A DNA stretch of 9,673 nt, taken from NCBI GenBank assembly GCA_014730235.1, contig WJIO01000088.1, forward strand, positions 1-9,673. Direction: 5' to 3'. The notes under the pieces were generated by a model. That model was not told the origin of the DNA, ran no database searches, and was given only the letters and a program-made list of their open reading frames with translations. Positions 1 to 8,821 of this stretch are shown here, piece by piece (the first letter of the stretch is position 1; every line of letters begins with the position of its first letter). The translations under genes and the position numbers were made by a program. The stretch is from Candidatus Poribacteria bacterium (lineage in GTDB: Bacteria; Poribacteria; DTPJ01; WJIO01).

Positions 1-80
1 CAATTGAACTATCTGACAAGGCACTTGAAGATAAAGCTGGTATTGTCGTATACCCAGATGAGTTTATGGAAACTGATTAA
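1..80 (+). CDS. 3' end of an unidentified gene (partial)
   Basis: An open frame enters from the window edge (first full codon at 3) and ends at TAA 78-80, giving 25 residues that finish in GIVVYPDEFMETD. The residue mix (acidic helix, hydrophobic strand GIVVYP, acidic tail) looks like a normal protein C-terminus and reads better than the competing frame 1. I do not recognise the family, and too little is present to assign a function. Frame 1 also stays open to about 149 but is rich in Lys/Ile/Tyr as expected from random AT-rich DNA. Confidence 0.5.
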   Translation, partial: IELSDKALEDKAGIVVYPDEFMETD

Positions 81-139
81 AAAATCCTATGTTTATAAAT
101 TCATATGCAAAGATATTTACGACACAGTTATCTTAAATA

Positions 140-166
140 GCTGGGCATAGCGGAGGAAGTTAGAAC
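140..166 (+). repeat. 27-bp direct repeat, copy 1
   Basis: This 27-bp stretch (starting GCTGGGCATAGCGG and ending GTTAGAAC) occurs again without mismatch at 651-677. It is clearly richer in G than the surrounding DNA. A diverged third copy lies at 2271-2299. It probably is the start of the C-terminal gene remnant described at 141-227. Confidence 0.85.
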
Positions 167-227
167 CAGGATAATAACCTCAAATAAGGATATACTCATA
201 CCTGAATTAGGAATAAAAGTCTTATAA
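141..227 (+). pseudogene. C-terminal gene remnant, paralogue A
   Basis: Read from 141, the frame gives 28 residues beginning LGIAEEVRT, containing ILIPELG and ending at TAA 225-227. The same frame in the second repeat copy (652-729) gives LGIAEEVRT followed by VFIPELIS and a stop. Beyond the identical 27 bp the DNA differs at many bases, yet the amino acids stay the same or conservative (R/K, I/V, I/V, L/F, then IPEL), which suggests descent from paralogous coding sequences. An in-frame TAG at 138-140 directly precedes it, so the N-terminal part is gone or frameshifted. I cannot name the family. Confidence 0.4.
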
Positions 228-372: not shown

Positions 373-576
373 ATGCATATACTGTGGGGAGGACTTTTAA
401 TAGCAGCGGGTTTATTTATGCTAATCAACAGTCTATTAAAAAGTGATTTTGTTGTTTATCGTCTTTTGGTTTATCGAGCAAAAATACTATGGGGAAAGCA
501 TGTACATCTATTCTTTAATGTAGTTGGAGTTATCGTCATCATCTTTGGTATTTTGGTATTAATAAGGATTATCTGA
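373..576 (+). CDS. Small two-helix membrane protein, Imm17-like layout
   Basis: This 67-aa protein has two hydrophobic segments (about residues 3-22 and 45-66) joined by a basic loop (YRLLVYRAKILWGKH). That order, with GLFMLINSL in the first helix, an aromatic/basic middle and a second helix ending IIFGILVLI, resembles the small two-helix Imm17-type proteins that occur in polymorphic-toxin immunity sets. The resemblance is in layout only and is not proof. An AGAAGG stretch (355-360) lies 12 nt before the ATG, a long spacing for a Shine-Dalgarno site. No toxin gene is recognisable beside it; it sits alone between two copies of a 27-bp repeat. The alternative is a generic small membrane protein of unknown role. 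Confidence 0.7.
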   Translation: MHILWGGLLIAAGLFMLINSLLKSDFVVYRLLVYRAKILWGKHVHLFFNVVGVIVIIFGILVLIRII

Positions 577-650
577 TTCCACTAAATATATTTTTGAGTT
601 TTATCCAGGCTTATAAGGAGAAAGAGACTACTTTGAGTATAAAGATTTTG

Positions 651-677
651 GCTGGGCATAGCGGAGGAAGTTAGAAC
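651..677 (+). repeat. 27-bp direct repeat, copy 2
   Basis: Identical to 140-166 over 27 bp and in the same orientation. The two copies bracket the small membrane protein gene at 373-576. Confidence 0.85.
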
Positions 678-729
678 TAAAATAGTGAATTCATACAACG
701 ATGTTTTTATACCAGAATTAATATCTTAG
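652..729 (+). pseudogene. C-terminal gene remnant, paralogue B
   Basis: From 652 the frame reads LGIAEEVRTKIVNSYNDVF then IPELIS and TAG at 727-729. It parallels the remnant at 141-227 at protein level. A TAA at 640-642 in the same frame cuts it off upstream and no start codon fits. The family is unknown. Confidence 0.4.
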
Positions 730-734
730 AAATA

Positions 735-797: not shown

Positions 798-2141
798 TTA
801 CGGCATATAGGTAGCGGTAAACTCTATAGGATGAAAATTTCCTCCATACGCAAGAGAGTCCTGAATTCCATCATTGTTTGTTTGAAATCCTTTATGTCGT
901 AACCGTATCTGGAATCTATCATGTCCATTATCTATTGCTTGATTTAGAGCATCGATTAGTTTGTTTCCTGAACATGTAAAAGCAGGTATATCATATTCCC
1001 CCAATAAGGTTCCAGATATATAGTAATCTCCAAGCTCAATATTATCAGTTCCCCAGTAAACTGATTCTACCCAGATTTTTTCGATTAAGGAATATGGGTC
1101 ACCTACATCACCAAAATCATTAAATTTTATTTCAGCAGATATTATTTCTTTTCCGGAAAGGCTTGAAATATCAAAATTCAAGAAACCTCTAATGGTATTG
1201 TTAGATGGAATATCTCCTACTACAATCATTTTCTGGATATTAATCGTAATATCTTTAACAATATTTCCTCCCCCGGGTATCTGGGATAAACTAATACTTG
1301 GGAAAGCAAGTACCTCAATTGATTCTGTTTTCTGATCCTGCCCACCTTTTCCATCATCTACTTCAACTGTTATATCATAATTGCCAGAGGTATTAGGCAT
1401 GGTCCACTTTACTGGGTTGGTATCAGGATTGGCAAGGCTACCACCGGATACCGACCAATTGTATGTTACACTATCCCCGTCAGGGTCTGCTACAGCAGCA
1501 GAGAATGTATACTCAAGTCCCATGTAGTGGTTTCCCATAAAAGTAATCTCTGATATCTCAGGCGGATTATTTGGAATTTCACATCCCCATATAATATTCA
1601 TTGAGTCAGTAGCAGTACCTTCAGAGTTTGCGGCGGTTACAGTAAGATTATAGGTATCAGAAAGGTCTTCAAGGTTTACCTGGGCTATACGTTCGCCCCA
1701 TGCACCGTTTGAATCATCCCTTGAAAACTCAACAGCTGGAGCAGGTGTCCCCGATACAATAGCCTTTACCCTGTAGTAGCATACACCGTCTGATGCTGAA
1801 TAGGTAGGACCTTCAATTATCTCAAGGGTTAAAGTGGGAGCTTCAGCAGGTTCTCCCTCATCTGGCTGTTCTTCTTCAGGTGGTTCCTCTTCTGGTAATT
1901 CATCTTCTGGCGGAGTTTCTTCTCCCGGTGGTTCTTCTTCTGGCTCCTCTTCTGGTGGGGTGTCCTCCTCTCCCGGAGGTTCTTCTTCTTTTCCCACATC
2001 AGCTTCCCCTGCTTCTTCAGTATCTTTACTTTCTTCTACCGGGATTAGGCTACAGCCACATCCATTTGCTACAGCTGCTAAAGAAAAGAAACAAACTGTG
2101 GTTAAAACAATAAAGATAATGGATATTTTGTTTATTTTCAT
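798..2141 (-). CDS. Exported Ig/PKD/DNRLRE-domain protein (447 aa)
   Basis: Residues 1-26 form a signal peptide with an AVA|N cleavage site, followed by a Cys-Gly-Cys (C28, C30). Residues 35-101 are a Glu/Pro-rich linker. Residues 103-187 form an Ig-like module with a likely Cys121-Cys187 pair and the motif RDDSNGAWG. Residues 191-277 form a PKD/cadherin-like module (DPDGDSVTYNWS, VDDGKGG). Residues 280-447 form a DNRLRE-like beta-sandwich (RGFLNFDISSLSG; AIDNGHDRFQIRLRHKG). All parts point to an extracellular, non-enzymatic binding or structural role. The start is supported by AGGGAG 6 nt upstream and by homology with the 433-aa paralogue at 6439-7740. It has its own promoter (2192-2220). 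A lipoprotein reading is possible, but ANGC is a poor lipobox. Confidence 0.92.
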   Translation of the reverse strand: MKINKISIIFIVLTTVCFFSLAAVANGCGCSLIPVEESKDTEEAGEADVGKEEEPPGEEDTPPEEEPEEEPPGEETPPEDELPEEEPPEEEQPDEGEPAEAPTLTLEIIEGPTYSASDGVCYYRVKAIVSGTPAPAVEFSRDDSNGAWGERIAQVNLEDLSDTYNLTVTAANSEGTATDSMNIIWGCEIPNNPPEISEITFMGNHYMGLEYTFSAAVADPDGDSVTYNWSVSGGSLANPDTNPVKWTMPNTSGNYDITVEVDDGKGGQDQKTESIEVLAFPSISLSQIPGGGNIVKDITINIQKMIVVGDIPSNNTIRGFLNFDISSLSGKEIISAEIKFNDFGDVGDPYSLIEKIWVESVYWGTDNIELGDYYISGTLLGEYDIPAFTCSGNKLIDALNQAIDNGHDRFQIRLRHKGFQTNNDGIQDSLAYGGNFHPIEFTATYMP

Positions 2142-2147
2142 TTAGGG

Positions 2148-2153
2148 CTCCCT
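2148..2153 (-). promoter_or_regulatory. Ribosome binding site of the 447-aa gene
   Basis: AGGGAG on the minus strand, 6 nt before the ATG. It lies inside the short palindrome AGGGAGCCCT. It fixes the start at 2141. Confidence 0.7.
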
Positions 2154-2191
2154 GGCAACATAATATATTTATTTTGTTGTGGTATTTATTA

Positions 2192-2220
2192 ATCATACAA
2201 CCTTTTCAGTTTTATGTTAA
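2192..2220 (-). promoter_or_regulatory. Promoter of the 447-aa gene (shared design)
   Basis: On the minus strand TTAACA (2215-2220) and TATGAT (2192-2197) are separated by exactly 17 nt, with GAAAAGG inside the spacer. The same boxes, spacing and spacer core precede the 276-aa and 433-aa genes, which makes this a well-supported sigma-70-type promoter and suggests co-regulation. The leader would be about 45 nt. Confidence 0.75.
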
Positions 2221-2270
2221 ATTTAAAGAATTTTGTTATCTTTTAGAACTATTTAATTATTCAATTACTC

Positions 2271-2299
2271 GTTGGCCATAGCGTATGAAGATAAGAACT
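2271..2299 (+). repeat. Diverged third copy of the 27-bp repeat
   Basis: This stretch (GTTGGCCATAGCG, then GAAG and AGAACT) matches the copies at 140 and 651 at about 24 of 29 aligned positions with one inserted base. The reading frame seen in the other copies is not kept. Confidence 0.5.
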
Positions 2300-2333
2300 G
2301 TACTAAAGACTGGGGGTAGGGTCAATTCTTATC
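2290..2333. other. 11-bp inverted repeat in a GC-richer intergenic patch
   Basis: GATAAGAACTG (2290-2300) pairs with CAATTCTTATC (2323-2333) at 10 of 11 positions around a 22-nt G-rich loop. It lies between the end of the 752-aa gene and the promoter of the 447-aa gene. No T-run follows on either strand, so it is a poor intrinsic terminator. The patch 2302-2425 is richer in G/C than other spacers here and may be a relic of inserted DNA. A smaller stem (ATACTT 2383-2388 with AAGTAT 2395-2400) lies further on. Confidence 0.4.
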
Positions 2334-2436
2334 GGGTATAGTAGTTGGAGGGGTTTTTGTCTCCGGTAACACGAAGCTATGTATACTTTTAAGGAAGTAT
2401 AGGTCGGGGACGAGGAAGCAAATTCTTATAAATTTA

Positions 2437-4695
2437 TTATTCCTCAGAAAACCTCTTGAAATTATAATCAGGGTATACAATACTATCCAGATTAACCCTG
2501 CGGGCCATTTCATCCATTGATATTCCGGAATCCAGCTGATTGTAAATGCCCATATCCCATATATCAAAACCCTTTTTCTCTACATAGAAACCGTATATTT
2601 CTTCAGTCTGTCCTGCTATATTTCCCCTTAGAGGAATAACAGGGTTTGCCGGGTCATAACCTTCATCGAAATACCAGCCATTAGTCGGATCTATAAGTAT
2701 CCATCTGTTATCCAGATAGACTTCCACAAATACGTGGCCTATCCGGGGTCTTGCTTCCTCTTCATCTGTTTTAAAGCTTTTTATCCAGACTATACTTGAA
2801 GTCCTTATCATAACAGCAGGATAGCCAATCTCTCTGGCCACTGCTGAATAGACCAGTGCATAATCATGGCAGCCGCCAAGACTCATTTTTTCTAGCAACT
2901 CCTCTGCTGTGACCTTTCCAATTGTCTTACCGCCAGCAGAATAGGAAGTAAATTCATCTTTTAACCAGTGATATATGTTTCCCAGGTTATCCAGATTTTT
3001 TTTGTTAGAATATAATGTTTTTAAAATTGTATGATCCGAAATCTTTGATTGTTTCCCCTGAATTAAATATTTATTAGGATTTGCATAATCAATACCAAAA
3101 GCAATGCCGTATTCTGCAGCTGCTGGCTGGTAATCATTTTCTTGTTCTTCCACATCACATTCCCAGCAAAGCTCTATAACATCTGTAGCGGTACCTGCAC
3201 GATTGGCTGCAACAGCAGTTAAAGTATAAGAATCATTTAAATCATATAAATTTACCTGCGCCCTGTTATTGCCCCATGCTCCATTAGAATCATCCCTGGA
3301 AAATTCTATATCAGGTAGGGGCTTACCGGTTACGATTGCTTTGACCCTATAATAGCAGACATTATCCTCTTCTGAATATATGGGACCTTCATAGATCTCA
3401 AGCTTTATAGCAGGTTCTATGGCCTGTTCCTGCTTTCCGGTTGTTTCCTTCTCCTGTTCCTTCTCCTTAAGGATATCCTCCTTCTTACTATCATCCTGGC
3501 TGTCTTCTTCTTTTATTTCCTTATCACCGTTATTTTCTATTTCTGCTTCACCCTTAACATTATCAGGTACCTGTGGTGAAGATAAAAAATTATCTGCTAT
3601 TCTAAAAATAATCCCAATTATAGTGGATAGATAATATTTTAACCTTTCAAATAAGCTCCCAAATATATTTTTTTGCATTTGCAGGGGAAAATCATAAAGA
3701 TATGTTTGAGGATAATTACCCAGATCCCTCCAGTCACTCCATACTACCCTGTTTCCGGATATATCAGGGTAATCCTGAAGTTCATCCGAGGGATTTATTC
3801 TGGATGACCCGGAGAATCCCATCAGATCCATTAAGTATACCTGCCACTGGCCGTCCCTGTCATCAAGCCATATTACGTATTTACCTGAAATAGCCGGCTG
3901 CATCTGGTTTGAAGAAGAGGGACTTATGACAGAGGTATTTCCCGAAGACAAGTCATGGAGTTTTATATTAGCCGGGGTATCAGGTGTTGGTATAGCTGCA
4001 TCATGTTCAACCCATACTATTCTATCCTCCCAGATAGAAGGGTCTCTCTGATCATTTGGGGAAGGATAAAGAATCGTTGAATTGTCTGCTGCAATATCAT
4101 ACAGATAAATCTGCAGATAACCGGGCCTGAAGTCTGCCCATACTATCCTGTCTTCATATATCTCTGGAGTTGTCTGTAAATAATCCGTCGGATCTATCCT
4201 GGTGACAGTCTCTGCTGTGATGGAATACATATATATCTGATGAACTCCATCTCTTGTGTCAACCCAGACTATGTTGTCACCGTATATGCCTGGATATAAT
4301 TGATCACTGGTGGTTGCGCTTATTCTTATAGGGTCTGTAGCAGGGTCGGACAGGTCGTAATAATATATCTGATAATACCCATTCCTGTAGTCCTGCCATA
4401 CTATACTGTCACTGTAGACCGAAGACCAGGTTTGTATGGAGTCTGTTGGGTCCAGAGGATATGTTTCACCTGTGGAAATATCATGAATATATATTTGGCT
4501 CGTTCCATCCCTTATATCTTCCCAAACAATCCGGTCCTCAAATACACGGGGCTGCATCTGTCCCGTACTCTGCGGATCAACCCTTATAATTTCATCAGCA
4601 TATATATCACTTTTAAAACTGAATAATATTGAAGGTAGAAAACAGAACGCGATAATTAAATATATGATTATTGTTTTTCTTATACCTTTACACAT
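2437..4695 (-). CDS. Exported seven-blade propeller / Ig-like / transglutaminase-like protein (752 aa)
   Basis: Residues 1-33 are a signal peptide ending IYA|DE. Residues 37-340 hold seven TolB-like propeller repeats of about 42-48 residues, each with a core like DRIVWEDIRDG...QIYIHD (cores near 54, 96, 140, 182, 224, 272, 315). A hydrophobic stretch (351-372) and a charged Lys/Glu linker (378-427) follow. Residues 428-513 are the same Ig-like module found in the 447- and 433-aa proteins (RDDSNGAWG; C447, C510, C513). Residues about 560-710 are a transglutaminase-like (papain-fold) domain with the triad Cys609 (GGCHDYALVYSAVAREIGYP), His654 (IGHVFVEVYL) and Asp669 (ILIDPTNGW). It may be a transglutaminase or a cysteine protease-like enzyme acting on surface proteins or glycans; the substrate is unknown. 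No good Shine-Dalgarno site precedes the ATG, but the signal peptide supports this start. It lies 117 nt after the 276-aa gene on the same strand and may be co-transcribed with it. Confidence 0.93.
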   Translation of the reverse strand: MCKGIRKTIIIYLIIAFCFLPSILFSFKSDIYADEIIRVDPQSTGQMQPRVFEDRIVWEDIRDGTSQIYIHDISTGETYPLDPTDSIQTWSSVYSDSIVWQDYRNGYYQIYYYDLSDPATDPIRISATTSDQLYPGIYGDNIVWVDTRDGVHQIYMYSITAETVTRIDPTDYLQTTPEIYEDRIVWADFRPGYLQIYLYDIAADNSTILYPSPNDQRDPSIWEDRIVWVEHDAAIPTPDTPANIKLHDLSSGNTSVISPSSSNQMQPAISGKYVIWLDDRDGQWQVYLMDLMGFSGSSRINPSDELQDYPDISGNRVVWSDWRDLGNYPQTYLYDFPLQMQKNIFGSLFERLKYYLSTIIGIIFRIADNFLSSPQVPDNVKGEAEIENNGDKEIKEEDSQDDSKKEDILKEKEQEKETTGKQEQAIEPAIKLEIYEGPIYSEEDNVCYYRVKAIVTGKPLPDIEFSRDDSNGAWGNNRAQVNLYDLNDSYTLTAVAANRAGTATDVIELCWECDVEEQENDYQPAAAEYGIAFGIDYANPNKYLIQGKQSKISDHTILKTLYSNKKNLDNLGNIYHWLKDEFTSYSAGGKTIGKVTAEELLEKMSLGGCHDYALVYSAVAREIGYPAVMIRTSSIVWIKSFKTDEEEARPRIGHVFVEVYLDNRWILIDPTNGWYFDEGYDPANPVIPLRGNIAGQTEEIYGFYVEKKGFDIWDMGIYNQLDSGISMDEMARRVNLDSIVYPDYNFKRFSEE

Positions 4696-4800
4696 GATAT
4701 CAGGGATTAAAATATTTATAATAAGCTTGTCGTCTTTTCATTTTTTCTTCCATTAACAGGCAGTTCATGAAAACTTACATATTTATTATAGAGACCATAT

Positions 4801-4815
4801 TGAATAAAAAATTCA
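4801..4815 (-). other. Small hairpin at the stop of the 276-aa gene
   Basis: TGAAT and ATTCA flank five A (plus strand), giving a 5-bp stem that includes the TGA stop codon (4813-4815 on the minus strand). It is too weak to be called a terminator, so read-through into the 752-aa gene is plausible. Confidence 0.25.
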
Positions 4816-5643
4816 GGGGGTATAGTTTATAATAAAATTACCGTTTGCCTGAGCGGAATATGTAAGTCCGTCCCACTGATTGTCATTATCTGTTTCAAGG
4901 CCTTTAAAGTAAAAAATTATCTGGAATCTAACTGCCCCATCATCTATTGCCTGCTGTAGTTCACCTTTCAGTACGTCTGAGCTTATTTCAATAATCTCAT
5001 TATTGGACTCACCTATCAGGTTACCCGCTAAACCAAAATCACCAGGATTTAATGCTCTGGCGCCCCAGCTGGCAGAATAAATGCTTATAGGATAAAAAGC
5101 CGAAGTATCTCCATACCTCTCATAGGGTGGTCCCAGTTCCAGGAAGGCAGACTCAACATTTACTCCCGAGAGAGATGAGATATCATAACTTATATAACCC
5201 CTGCAGGGATTATTTTTGGCTGTATCTCCTATATACTGGACTGCTTCATAAGGGTGTAGTACATCTTCCCCGCTTATCATGTAACCAACTTCAGATATCT
5301 TAACATTAAGTTCCCTGCTTATAGTGCTTACCCGCTGTGTCTCTTCTAATTCAGGCTGGGGATTCTCTACGCCAGATTCTTCCTTTACATCTTCAGTGAC
5401 TTCTTCTTCAGCCTCCTCAGATGGTTCTTCTTCAGCAGGTTCTGTTTCAGTAGTTTCTTCTTCAGTTTCTTCAGAAGGCTCTTCTTCTGTCTCTTCGGTT
5501 GCCTTTTCATCCACAGATTCTTCTTCAGCCTCCTCAATTATTTCCTCTTCAGTCTGGGCCGTGCACTGGTTGCATACTGCAGCTGTGGTAAAAAATAACA
5601 GTGTGGCTATAACGGAAAGTATTAAATATATTTTTTTTTTCAT
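4813..5643 (-). CDS. Exported acidic-linker / DNRLRE-domain protein (276 aa)
   Basis: Residues 1-23 are a signal peptide followed by two cysteines (C24, C27; TAAVCNQC). AAVC could serve as a lipobox, so a lipoprotein is possible. Residues 31-102 are a Glu/Thr/Ser-rich acidic linker made of units like EEEPSEEAEEE. Residues about 115-276 are a DNRLRE-like domain (RGYISYDISSLSG; QAIDDGAVRFQIIFYFKG; TDNDNQWDGLTYS), clearly related to the C-termini of the 447- and 433-aa proteins, but the Ig-like and PKD-like modules are absent. A promoter of the shared type lies at 5680-5708. The leader resembles those of the paralogues up to CCAG, but the G-run and following bases are missing just before the ATG, so the ribosome site is weak. 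A run of ten A follows the ATG. Confidence 0.9.
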   Translation of the reverse strand: MKKKIYLILSVIATLLFFTTAAVCNQCTAQTEEEIIEEAEEESVDEKATEETEEEPSEETEEETTETEPAEEEPSEEAEEEVTEDVKEESGVENPQPELEETQRVSTISRELNVKISEVGYMISGEDVLHPYEAVQYIGDTAKNNPCRGYISYDISSLSGVNVESAFLELGPPYERYGDTSAFYPISIYSASWGARALNPGDFGLAGNLIGESNNEIIEISSDVLKGELQQAIDDGAVRFQIIFYFKGLETDNDNQWDGLTYSAQANGNFIINYTP

Positions 5644-5679
5644 ACTGGTTTCATTTTAAAATATATTTTTATAATTATT

Positions 5680-5708
5680 ATCATATACCTTTTCTTCTAT
5701 AATGTTAA
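5680..5708 (-). promoter_or_regulatory. Promoter of the 276-aa gene (shared design)
   Basis: On the minus strand TTAACA (5703-5708) and TATGAT (5680-5685) are 17 nt apart, with GAAAAGG in the spacer, as upstream of the 447- and 433-aa genes. Outside these boxes the sequence has diverged, so conservation of boxes and spacing is meaningful. Confidence 0.7.
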
Positions 5709-5845
5709 ATATATAGCCAGTATATACTTTTGGATAAAATTATAAGAAATAGAACCTTTCAGATTTCATAATGTAATAAGAAATTATTCTCAAAAATTAC
5801 AGGGTCGATATTACTTTAAAAATGCGGTTTTAAAAAAATATATTA

Positions 5846-6251
5846 TTACGTATAAAGATCCATCTTTAAAAAATTCATATTTTTTCCCTTTAAGACTATA
5901 ACATGCTCTTTTTTGTTGCATGCAGAGGCTACTCCTAATTCAATCGTCACATTTCCATTTTAACCTGTGAAATCAGCAATAATAACATCCACTGCACTTA
6001 TTTCGTTCCATATTTCGAGTGAATAATACCAGTGCTAACTTTTTGATCTACCTTGCAACTTCAATTTTACAAGCTAATTTTTTGCCTACTTAATTTCAAG
6101 CAATTATAAAAATACTTGTAATATCTTCAATATATTCTTTTGGTTTGAAGGGGCATTTTAGAAAAAAGTTCAAATATTTAAAACTAATTCTTTCTGGTAG
6201 GGAAGGATTTTTTAAAACATCAAAAGGACAAACTTATTTATGAATTCTCAT
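5846..6251 (-). pseudogene. Decayed TIR-like / deoxyribosyltransferase-like nucleotide-binding protein
   Basis: The ATG at 6251 has a strong ribosome site (TAAGGAG, 7 nt upstream). The frame reads CPFDVLKNPSLPERISFKYL, later KPKEYIEDITSIFIIA and GKKLACKIEVAR, but has stops at 6234-6236, 6096-6098, 6090-6092 and 6048-6050. After shifts near 6040 and 6016 it continues as IWNEISAVDVIIADFTG, TAA at 5960-5962, NGNVTIELGVASACNKKEHV. The pattern WNEIS-ADVIIADLTG-NPNV-ELGVA is the nucleotide-binding core of TIR-like and nucleoside 2-deoxyribosyltransferase-like proteins, many of them defence-associated. Here the residue between TG and N became a stop. Once a full-length gene of about 135 codons; now clearly inactive. 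The exact family is inferred from the motif. Confidence 0.75.
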
Positions 6252-6258
6252 CTGTCTG

Positions 6259-6265
6259 CTCCTTA
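6259..6265 (-). promoter_or_regulatory. Relic ribosome binding site of the decayed TIR-like gene
   Basis: TAAGGAG on the minus strand, 7 nt before the ATG at 6249-6251. It fixes the original start of the pseudogene. Confidence 0.65.
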
Positions 6266-6357
6266 TGCAAAGTGCCATTTCTACATCGCTACAATAAAAT
6301 ATAATTTATATATATTTTATATCAAATAGTCATAAAAGATAAAAAAATCTCATAAAT

Positions 6358-6386
6358 TTAACATAAAATTGAAAAGGGTGTATGAT
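6358..6386 (+). promoter_or_regulatory. Promoter of the 433-aa gene (shared design)
   Basis: TTAACA (6358-6363) and TATGAT (6381-6386) with a 17-nt spacer holding GAAAAGGG. Transcription would start near 6393, giving a leader of about 45 nt. The same arrangement stands before the 447- and 276-aa genes. Confidence 0.75.
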
Positions 6387-6426
6387 TAATAAATATCACA
6401 ATAAAATAAATATATTTTATGCTGCC

Positions 6427-6432
6427 AGGGGG
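6427..6432 (+). promoter_or_regulatory. Ribosome binding site of the 433-aa gene
   Basis: AGGGGG, 6 nt before the ATG at 6439; its position matches that of AGGGAG before the 447-aa gene. Confidence 0.65.
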
Positions 6433-6438
6433 TCCTAA

Positions 6439-7740
6439 ATGAAAAAAAACAAACTTTCCATTATATTTGTAACAATTACCATAATATGTATATTCTCAGT
6501 AGCCGCTATAGCAGACCAGTGTGGATGCAGGGCTATACTCCCTGAAGAAAGTAAAGATACAATAGAAGCAGGGGAAGATGCTGGCGAAGATGAAGAAGAG
6601 CCGCCGGAAGAGGAACCACCTGAAGAAGCGCCACCTGAAGGAGAACCTCCAGAAGAAGAACCACCTGAAGAGGAGGAGCCGGATGAAGGAGAACCAGCTG
6701 AGGCACCCAACCTTACACTTGAGATATATGAAGGGCCTATCTACTCATCAGATGGTATCTGCTATTATAGAATAGAAGCCAATGTGACAGGTAATCCCAC
6801 TCCCGATGTAGAGTTTTCAAAAGATGACTCAAACGGTGCCTGGGGAGAATATATAGCACAGATCAATCTTGAAGACCCCTCTGATACATACAACCTTACC
6901 GCTACTGCCACAAATGCTGAGGGTAGTGACAGTGCCTCCATTAATTTGGATTGGCAGTGTGCTATACCAAATAACCCGCCAGTTCTGGGAGAGATTTCAG
7001 TGGATATTACCACCCCTGTTATTTTCGATTTGCATACCTATTCCATAAATATAGCGGCTGATGATCCTGATGGAGATAGTCTGGAATATTCCTGGACATG
7101 CACTGCCGGAAGTCTGGACGATGGGAATGCCATAAAGCCTGAATGGTCAACTCCGGGAACTGGGGGAGACTATCAGATATCCGTAATAGTAGATGATGGT
7201 AATGGTGGAATTGCAGAAAGCTCTAAAACAGTATCTGTCTATAATGGAGCAGCACATAGGCCTTTGTATAATGAAGGGGGTTTTATTACAAGAAATGAAG
7301 CTGCCCACCCGGGAAGTTATCCCTGTGTTGGAGATTCTGACACCAACCAGCCTGAAAGAGGTTATATAAGCTTTGATATAGAAGGTTTTAGCGGGTCTGA
7401 AAAAATAGGGTATGCTGAAATATGGTTAATAGATGAGGTTAATTACGGAACTGATCCGGAAAGCCTAATAGATGCAGTATGGGTATCATCAGTATACTGG
7501 GGTGGACAGCAAATAGAGCTGAATGATTATGATTTATCCGGTGCTCTTCTTGGTGAGTTCCCTGGTGTTTCAAATGAGATTATAGTGGAAAATATTACAG
7601 ATAAATTAAAGCAGGCAATAGACGATGGGAGAGACAGGTTTCAAATACAGATCAGGCATAAAGGTTATTATACTGATAATGATAATTGTTCTGATGGCTG
7701 GCGTTACGAGGATGCTGCATTAGTATTCTATTCGAAATAG
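6439..7740 (+). CDS. Exported Ig/PKD/DNRLRE-domain protein (433 aa), paralogue of the 447-aa protein
   Basis: The domain order equals that of the 447-aa protein: signal peptide 1-25 (AIA|D), Cys-Gly-Cys (C28, C30), PEESKDT block, Glu/Pro-rich linker 40-90, Ig-like module 92-174 (C108 and C174; KDDSNGAWG), PKD-like module 178-268 (DPDGDSLEYSWT; VDDGNGG), DNRLRE-like domain 270-433 (RGYISFDIEGFSG; QAIDDGRDRFQIQIRHKGY; TDNDNCSDGW). The role is probably extracellular binding or structure; no catalytic residues are visible. It is transcribed away from the three minus-strand relatives, from its own copy of the shared promoter. Many codon differences from the 447-aa gene are synonymous, so both copies seem to have been kept under selection after an old duplication. 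Confidence 0.92.
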   Translation: MKKNKLSIIFVTITIICIFSVAAIADQCGCRAILPEESKDTIEAGEDAGEDEEEPPEEEPPEEAPPEGEPPEEEPPEEEEPDEGEPAEAPNLTLEIYEGPIYSSDGICYYRIEANVTGNPTPDVEFSKDDSNGAWGEYIAQINLEDPSDTYNLTATATNAEGSDSASINLDWQCAIPNNPPVLGEISVDITTPVIFDLHTYSINIAADDPDGDSLEYSWTCTAGSLDDGNAIKPEWSTPGTGGDYQISVIVDDGNGGIAESSKTVSVYNGAAHRPLYNEGGFITRNEAAHPGSYPCVGDSDTNQPERGYISFDIEGFSGSEKIGYAEIWLIDEVNYGTDPESLIDAVWVSSVYWGGQQIELNDYDLSGALLGEFPGVSNEIIVENITDKLKQAIDDGRDRFQIQIRHKGYYTDNDNCSDGWRYEDAALVFYSK

Positions 7741-8021: not shown

Positions 8022-8371
8022 TTTTGGTGAAGAAACTAATTATTTATTGTTAAAATGAGAAATAATAAATTTATATATTTTCTCAGTCAGCATTAAGGAT
8101 ATAAATAAAGTCACAAATCCCGTCAGGATTAAAATTTAACGTCTTGCTTCGTCTATAGACAGGCCTTAGGTATGAAGATATTCGCAAGGATTTGCAGGGC
8201 TTTAAATAACACCATTCCGATATAATGAAATAATATGATTTTTTCGATATTATAGTGTATTTTTACCCTACCGTGCTACGCACTATTTATCTGATAGTTT
8301 AGCCATCATCATTGATAAGAATAATTTGATATAATAATTAAAATATCATTATTAAAATTAATAAACTAAAA
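8022..8371. other. Spacer without an intact gene
   Basis: No credible start-to-stop gene is seen on either strand. On the plus strand 8165-8209 reads LRYEDIRKDLQGFK and a stop, which looks like a short coding tail, but an in-frame TAG at 8159-8161 precedes it. Just before the nuclease gene, TGATAT (8327-8332) and ATATCA (8343-8348) form an inverted repeat with a 10-nt gap that could be an operator, although chance is likely in such AT-rich DNA. Confidence 0.4.
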
Positions 8372-8821
8372 ATGAATTCAGAATGGACTTATGAAAGTGA
8401 GTGGTTTGAAAAGACCAATGTTTCTTTAAAAATTAAGGATTATTTGGTAAATGGCGGATATACAATAACAAAATTCAATGTAGCAAAAACCGAAAAGGGT
8501 CATGATATCGAAGCAAAAAAAGATGGTAAAAAATTAATAATCGAAGTAAAAGGATTTCCTTCAGATAAATATGTCAGAGGTAGAAATAAAGGCAAAAAGA
8601 AACCAACTAATCCAAGATTACAGGCCAAGCATTGGATTGCAGAAGCCTTATTTTCTTTAATTCAAGCTAAAAATAAAAAACCAGATGCAATAATAGCTTT
8701 TGCTTTTCCAAAGTTTGATAGGTATACAAATCTGGTGAATAGTATTAGGGATATAATGAAAATTTTAGATTTAAGATGTTTTTTTGTTTCCAAAAATGGA
8801 AACGTAGAAGAAATAATTTAG
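8372..8821 (+). CDS. PD-(D/E)xK nuclease-like protein (149 aa)
   Basis: A predicted small restriction-endonuclease-like protein. An N-terminal helix carries acidic residues (ESEWFEKTN), and the core reads GHDIEAKKDGKKLIIEVKGFP, giving D45, E58 and K60 in the D-x12-E-x-K pattern of the PD-(D/E)xK fold. After it come a basic loop (65-82, RGRNKGKKKPTNP) and a helix with Q84 and H87 (QAKHWIAEALFSL), then a strand IIAFAFP. The whole protein is about the size of a single nuclease domain, so target recognition may come from a partner or from the basic loop. DNA cleavage or a structural role are both possible. No Shine-Dalgarno site precedes the ATG. The DNA is more AT-rich than the exported-protein genes, and neighbours are decayed genes, which suggests transfer. 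No methylase is seen nearby. Confidence 0.8.
   Translation: MNSEWTYESEWFEKTNVSLKIKDYLVNGGYTITKFNVAKTEKGHDIEAKKDGKKLIIEVKGFPSDKYVRGRNKGKKKPTNPRLQAKHWIAEALFSLIQAKNKKPDAIIAFAFPKFDRYTNLVNSIRDIMKILDLRCFFVSKNGNVEEII

Follow-up and report, generated by a model that had tools for sequence, protein, structure and literature searches.

The window analysed here (9,673 bp) is a complete contig, WJIO01000088.1 (C2 in our numbering). It comes from a metagenome-assembled genome (MAG) filed as Candidatus Poribacteria bacterium (GCA_014730235.1; 5.53 Mb in 451 contigs, 91.6% complete, 4.77% estimated contamination). Its four large open reading frames (ORFs), labelled g1 to g4, encode exported proteins assembled from modules. 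Our best reading is that they are ordinary modular surface proteins of the class Candidatus Humimicrobiia (Actinomycetota), belonging to a lineage-specific surface proteome that probably binds glycans. More precisely, g1, g3 and g4 would be exported surface proteins that bind a ligand, g2 would be a separate exported enzyme, and the contig was probably mis-binned. We give this reading a probability of about 0.62.

The immunoglobulin-like (Ig) module is common to g1, g2 and g4. A preliminary description of this DNA had noted it, with the motif DDSNGAWG. We confirmed this: the three copies are true homologues, with 60-69% identity and an invariant motif. A fourth copy in the MAG lies on contig C341, in a zinc-ribbon/transmembrane (TM) protein. 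A profile built on 15 Ig modules matches I-set Ig chains (for instance Robo2, at 1e-10). Likewise, the g4 structure model shows an all-beta domain in this region. Compared with the I-set domains of Robo, titin and contactin, the module has a class-specific DDSxGAWG, and no single member reaches the Pfam I-set cut-off of 23.7 bits (the best has 15.1 bits, E 0.024).

The distribution of this module points to another lineage than that of the MAG. Among 84 genomes of the MAG's phylum it occurs only in the MAG itself, and none of the 83 relatives has it. When 85,000 species genomes were scanned, 19 loci were returned. Eighteen belong to Actinomycetota or Actinomycetes (by that label or as a named member), and one is recorded only as 'bacterium'. 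One of the 19 is Ca. Calidifonticultor, a member of Ca. Humimicrobiia. In this class, 34 of 40 genomes present an Ig match, with one to seven matches per genome; a 35th genome matches through the propeller only. The carriers are L,D-transpeptidase lipoproteins, TM- or lipobox-anchored proteins and many others. The module is joined to a DNRLRE-like tip in 26 non-identical Humimicrobiia ORFs, with PKD in between in 16 of them. So, the Ig module is lineage-specific, but generic inside Ca. Humimicrobiia. Lipoproteins of the class that combine Ig with a YkuD L,D-transpeptidase domain were seen at L036 (9609-10664), L037 (3-791) and L042 (8215-9246); YkuD was assigned by Pfam in the first and by phmmer in the other two. 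A viral and a plasmid origin were also considered and rejected, with no Ig relative in IMG/VR and no near match in PLSDB.

The DNRLRE-like domain is present in the window's MAG and in 20 genomes of the class, and in 0 of 20 phylum relatives. The fraction of arginine codons of the CGN type is 0.19 in the window genes, which falls within the range of Humimicrobiia loci (0.03-0.29) and below that of other MAG contigs (0.47-0.59). A repeat of about 85 bp, seen here at 142 and 653 and described below, was detected in 20 of the 40 genomes of the class, but in none of the 15 MAG relatives searched. Given the distribution of the two modules, the codon use and the class-specific repeat, the most likely explanation is that a Humimicrobiia contig was mis-binned here. 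Contamination of the MAG by foreign contigs was judged from sampled contigs.

The preliminary description proposed that the four genes share a common set of parts. That the proteins are modular, exported and have domains in common is supported. However, only g1 and g4 (52% identical) contain the full set: Ig and PKD are absent from g3, and g2 has no PKD, DNRLRE-like tip or N-terminal cysteine pair. The PKD assignment passes the Pfam cut-off (PF00801, 23.5 bits) in both g1 (40.6 bits) and g4 (23.8 bits). A shared regulation had also been claimed. The upstream regions and 5' gene halves of g1 and g4 do align (72% over about 700 nt), and the final ~85 nt are near-identical. No such likeness was found in the upstream regions of g2 and g3. 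The claim is thus reduced to a pair of paralogues and does not extend to a four-gene regulon.

At the C-terminus, g1, g3 and g4 have domains that can be aligned with one another. We obtained an AlphaFold model of g4 residues 85-433, made with 12 relatives (mean predicted local distance difference test score, pLDDT, 88.3). Its PKD part matches PKD domains with Z 9.9-10.5. The closest fold to its tip is a chondroitin-sulfate carbohydrate-binding module (CBM), 8wab (Z 15.8, root-mean-square deviation 3.6, 157 aligned residues). The alginate-binding CBM96 7vbo follows with Z 12.9, a deviation of 3.4 and 145 aligned residues. Both scores exceed those of the unrelated entries in the same fold search. 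The CBM96 family was established from a module that binds alginate and shares about 30% identity with DNRLRE domains; polyuronate is bound there by a Lys/Arg/Tyr set of residues in a basic groove (PMC9971899). Since the g4 tip has a CBM96-type fold, the name 'DNRLRE-like' used in the preliminary description is supported by fold. The NCBIfam model for DNRLRE (NF033679) matches 5 of 13 members of the tip family below 0.05, with 1.3e-5 as the best value. The likeness to DNRLRE, 7vbo and 8wab lies in the tip fold and in the modular use within exported multidomain proteins; the difference is that here the tip is borne on a stalk without a catalytic domain. At the level of overall fold, the model suggests that the tip may bind a glycan.

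On this basis, a working arrangement can be proposed. In g1, g3 and g4, the signal peptide would leave a cysteine-rich N-terminus followed by a long acidic linker. The I-set-type Ig module and PKD would form a stalk in g1 and g4, and g3 would consist of the tip only. The C-terminal beta-sandwich would be the binding tip, most likely for a polysaccharide, at or near the cell surface. In g2, the RIVW propeller and the Ig spacer would carry a transglutaminase-superfamily domain that would act on a surface or extracellular protein or peptide. One Ig spacer would be reused over the whole surface proteome of the lineage, and the window genes would form no single machine.

The Ig-PKD-jelly-roll proteins could otherwise be a surface-layer or wall scaffold without a specific ligand, in which the cysteine pair serves for disulfides or attachment and the transglutaminase helps to crosslink. 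We consider this rather unlikely. Archaeal surface proteins do combine the same RIVW, PKD and DNRLRE parts (PMC2447325, abstract), one of the PKD matches of the g4 model is 1l0q, an archaeal surface-layer structure with propeller and PKD, and the Ig module is also found on L,D-transpeptidases, which act on the wall. Nevertheless, the folds that match the tip best belong to glycan-binding CBMs and not to scaffold domains, the proteins are present in just 1-7 copies per genome, and several homologues have other C-terminal sequences in place of the tip.

The g2 protein is the member for which a transglutaminase-like C-terminus and an added propeller had been described, and both assignments hold. 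The transglutaminase core scores 43.5 bits (PF01841, cut-off 23). Its catalytic triad is intact, with Cys609, His654 and Asp669 in GGCHD, GHVFVE and DPTNG. The propeller scores 220.2 bits with TIGR04275 (cut-off 85), in seven stretches. A regular expression found six of these repeats, and the seventh (SIVWQD) was read straight from the sequence. The core domain with its Cys-His-Asp triad is what g2 shares with the transglutaminase-like superfamily. It differs in that a sequence search found no solved structural relative of the domain, and in its propeller-Ig context. A structure model of g2 made without an alignment had a pLDDT of 44.7 and was not used.

It had been proposed, from the sharing of the Ig module, that the enzyme and the binding proteins act together at the cell surface. 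In such a dedicated system, g2 would recognize the Ig module and cross-link or trim the Ig-PKD-DNRLRE proteins. The four genes do lie inside 7 kb, and g1, g2 and g4 have the module in common. Relatives of the transglutaminase are present in 26 of 40 Humimicrobiia genomes. An Ig gene was found within the fetched flank at one of 20 such loci (several contigs are short). At this locus, L175, a gene for an LVIVD propeller and a transglutaminase lies 216 bp upstream of an Ig-PKD gene. However, no nearby Ig gene was seen at the other 19, and the L175 neighbour has no DNRLRE-like tip. Homologues of the enzyme and of the DNRLRE proteins are almost never neighbours elsewhere, which the preliminary description itself had taken as telling against its proposal. 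The usual architecture in the class (16 of 20 loci) is an LVIVD propeller with transglutaminase and no Ig, mostly with a recognisable PKD. Furthermore, a tree built on 57 Ig modules pairs g1 with g4 and places the g2 module closest to that of another genome; the g2 module is no nearer to its neighbours than to other genomes. Many unrelated class proteins also bear the module. With Ig generic in the class (34 of 40 genomes; L,D-transpeptidases, a zinc-ribbon protein and others) and adjacency at 1 of 20 loci, the one-system claim is unsupported, and we find it quite improbable. The lineage reuses one Ig spacer, so the modules common to the window genes tell little about joint action. The class-wide LVIVD-PKD-transglutaminase protein (loci L159-L178) is a lipoprotein of about 820-890 amino acids.

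The N-termini present a recurrent motif. C-[NSG]-x-C directly follows the hydrophobic N-terminus in 21 of 51 Ig proteins; at this site g1 and g4 read CGC and g3 reads CNQC. The motif might serve for a disulfide or an unusual attachment. A canonical lipobox is present in some homologues, for example L036.

Four points weigh against our preferred reading. First, the DNRLRE label fails at the sequence level: the NF033679 cut-off of 34 bits is reached by none of the window members (18.8 bits in g1, 14.5 in g3, no match in g4), and g2 has no such tip. Second, a fold in common is no proof of glycan binding. Third, the end of the signal peptide shows no lipobox of the form [LVI][ASTVI][GAS]C in g1 (ANGC), g3 (AAVC, CNQC) or g4 (ADQC). 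We could assign no anchor to these three proteins, since their cysteine pair is not a canonical lipobox. Finally, contig C399, which has main-genome composition, encodes (L125 10761-10970) a relative of the 67-amino-acid membrane-protein ORF at window positions 373-576, with 61% identity. No other relative was found in the 60 further genomes tested. This last observation fits horizontal transfer better than mis-binning. The contig would then be rightly binned, and the Ig genes would have moved from Humimicrobiia into the MAG's own lineage. In tetranucleotide composition, the window correlates with main contigs at 0.77-0.84, which is no lower than with many Humimicrobiia loci, and this also agrees with a transfer. 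On the other hand, Humimicrobiia is indicated by the codon usage, by the repeat and by each of the four Ig modules, no other genome of the MAG's phylum has the module, and the MAG has an estimated contamination of 4.77%. Transfer therefore appears unlikely, and we keep mis-binning as the preferred explanation.

Most of the parts have precedents. RIVW, LVIVD and DNRLRE were described jointly from Methanosarcina surface proteins in 2004 (PMC2447325). From its abstract, the parts list is the same as here with PKD included: the g2 propeller is of the RIVW type, and the LVIVD type corresponds to the class-wide Humimicrobiia transglutaminase protein. Here the lineage is bacterial, and that abstract mentions neither a class-specific Ig nor a fusion with transglutaminase. 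Considering these proteins together with CBM96 and the I-set domains, the parts are known, and what is particular is the class-specific form of the Ig module. Through this window, the set of surface-protein parts used by an uncultured actinobacterial class comes into view for the first time. Its elements are an I-set-like Ig that stays below every Pfam cut-off, the C-[NSG]-x-C motif that recurs behind the signal peptide, and tips whose likeness to CBM96 suggests that they bind glycans. A further lesson is that a module common to genes within one lineage is weak evidence of joint function. The Ig module and the repeat can be used as markers for mis-binned Humimicrobiia contigs.

The repeat has a consensus of about 85 bp, TTGGCTGGcCATAGcGgACGAAGTTAGAACCAgaAT...GATATTTTTATACCaGAATTgAgTTTTTAA (38 copies). 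Ten contigs have at least two copies, and in every one of these contigs the orientation is uniform. It bounds cassette-like units (toxin-antitoxin modules, GNAT and Ig genes) across the class, in an arrangement that resembles gene-cassette arrays. A HicAB unit present in two genomes is 89.6% identical in otherwise different surroundings; the homology begins 6 nt ahead of one repeat and stops about 100 nt past the next. Other units bounded by the repeat contain apparent RelE/ParE-, HigBA-, MazF- and PIN-type toxin-antitoxin genes. These assignments, HicAB included, were made by reading the ORFs, with no family search.

The same repeat marks a divergence between two contigs of the MAG. Window positions 1-144 correspond to L022 524-667 on C341. 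The 3' end of the GNAT gene is identical save one base (139), and the sequences diverge from the repeat on. After it, the window has the 67-amino-acid ORF and then g1, and C341 has the Ig zinc-ribbon gene. One locus may continue in two alternative ways here, or the strains may vary. Because the genes that follow one GNAT gene differ between the two contigs, are bounded by the repeat and include Ig genes, we tentatively propose that Humimicrobiia have a gene-cassette system of their own, with a directional non-attC repeat and Ig-family surface genes among the cargo; this remains a doubtful idea. No IntI integrase exceeded the TIGR02249 cut-off in 41 genomes, which are incomplete, and inspection of the consensus by eye showed no RYYYAAC/GTTRRRY pair and no palindromic ends. 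Six loci with IntI-like recombinases showed no copy of the repeat within the flanks fetched. On these three results, the integron reading was judged unlikely and set aside. Two further readings of the repeat were discarded: an RNA or DNA structure, for want of an obvious palindrome in the alignment, and the end of a known protein, for want of a Pfam match. This cassette-like repeat merits a study of its own. Window positions 8262-8300, ttttaccctaccgtgctacgcactattta, resemble by eye a weakly conserved stretch downstream of some repeat copies.

Table. Coordinates of the features described (positions in the window unless a locus is given).
Feature	Position	Strand	Remarks
g1	798..2141	-	447 amino acids: signal peptide, Cys28/Cys30, acidic Pro/Glu linker, Ig, PKD, DNRLRE-like C-terminal domain
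Ig (I-set-like) module of g1	1575..1838	-	
DNRLRE-like/CBM96-fold domain of g1	801..1271	-	fold via the homologous g4 domain
g2	2437..4695	-	752 amino acids: signal peptide, RIVW/TIGR04275 propeller, acidic linker, Ig, transglutaminase-like domain
RIVW-repeat propeller of g2, seven-bladed	3646..4605	-	TIGR04275, 7 stretches
Ig module of g2	3151..3414	-	
Transglutaminase core of g2	2686..3003	-	PF01841; Cys609, His654, Asp669
g3	4813..5643	-	276 amino acids: signal peptide with CNQC, acidic linker, DNRLRE-like domain only
g4 upstream region	6321..6438	+	homologous to g1 upstream region 2142-2257 (-)
g4	6439..7740	+	433 amino acids: signal peptide, Cys28/Cys30, acidic linker, Ig, PKD, DNRLRE-like domain
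Ig module of g4	6706..6966	+	
DNRLRE-like domain of g4	7270..7734	+	closest folds 8wab, 7vbo
Repeat copy 1	135..214	+	after 3' end of GNAT gene
Repeat copy 2	647..731	+	
Repeat copy 3, degenerate	2273..2298	+	5' half only, beyond g1; 4 mismatches; missed by profile
Repeat copies elsewhere	L022 (C341) 657-742, 2643-2727; also L199-L208		

An Rfam search of the window gave no match above the gathering scores. In the remaining part of the contig, an ORF of 149 amino acids (8372-8821) shows a weak match to the NO VEIN C-terminal family (PF13020, E 0.02, under the cut-off).

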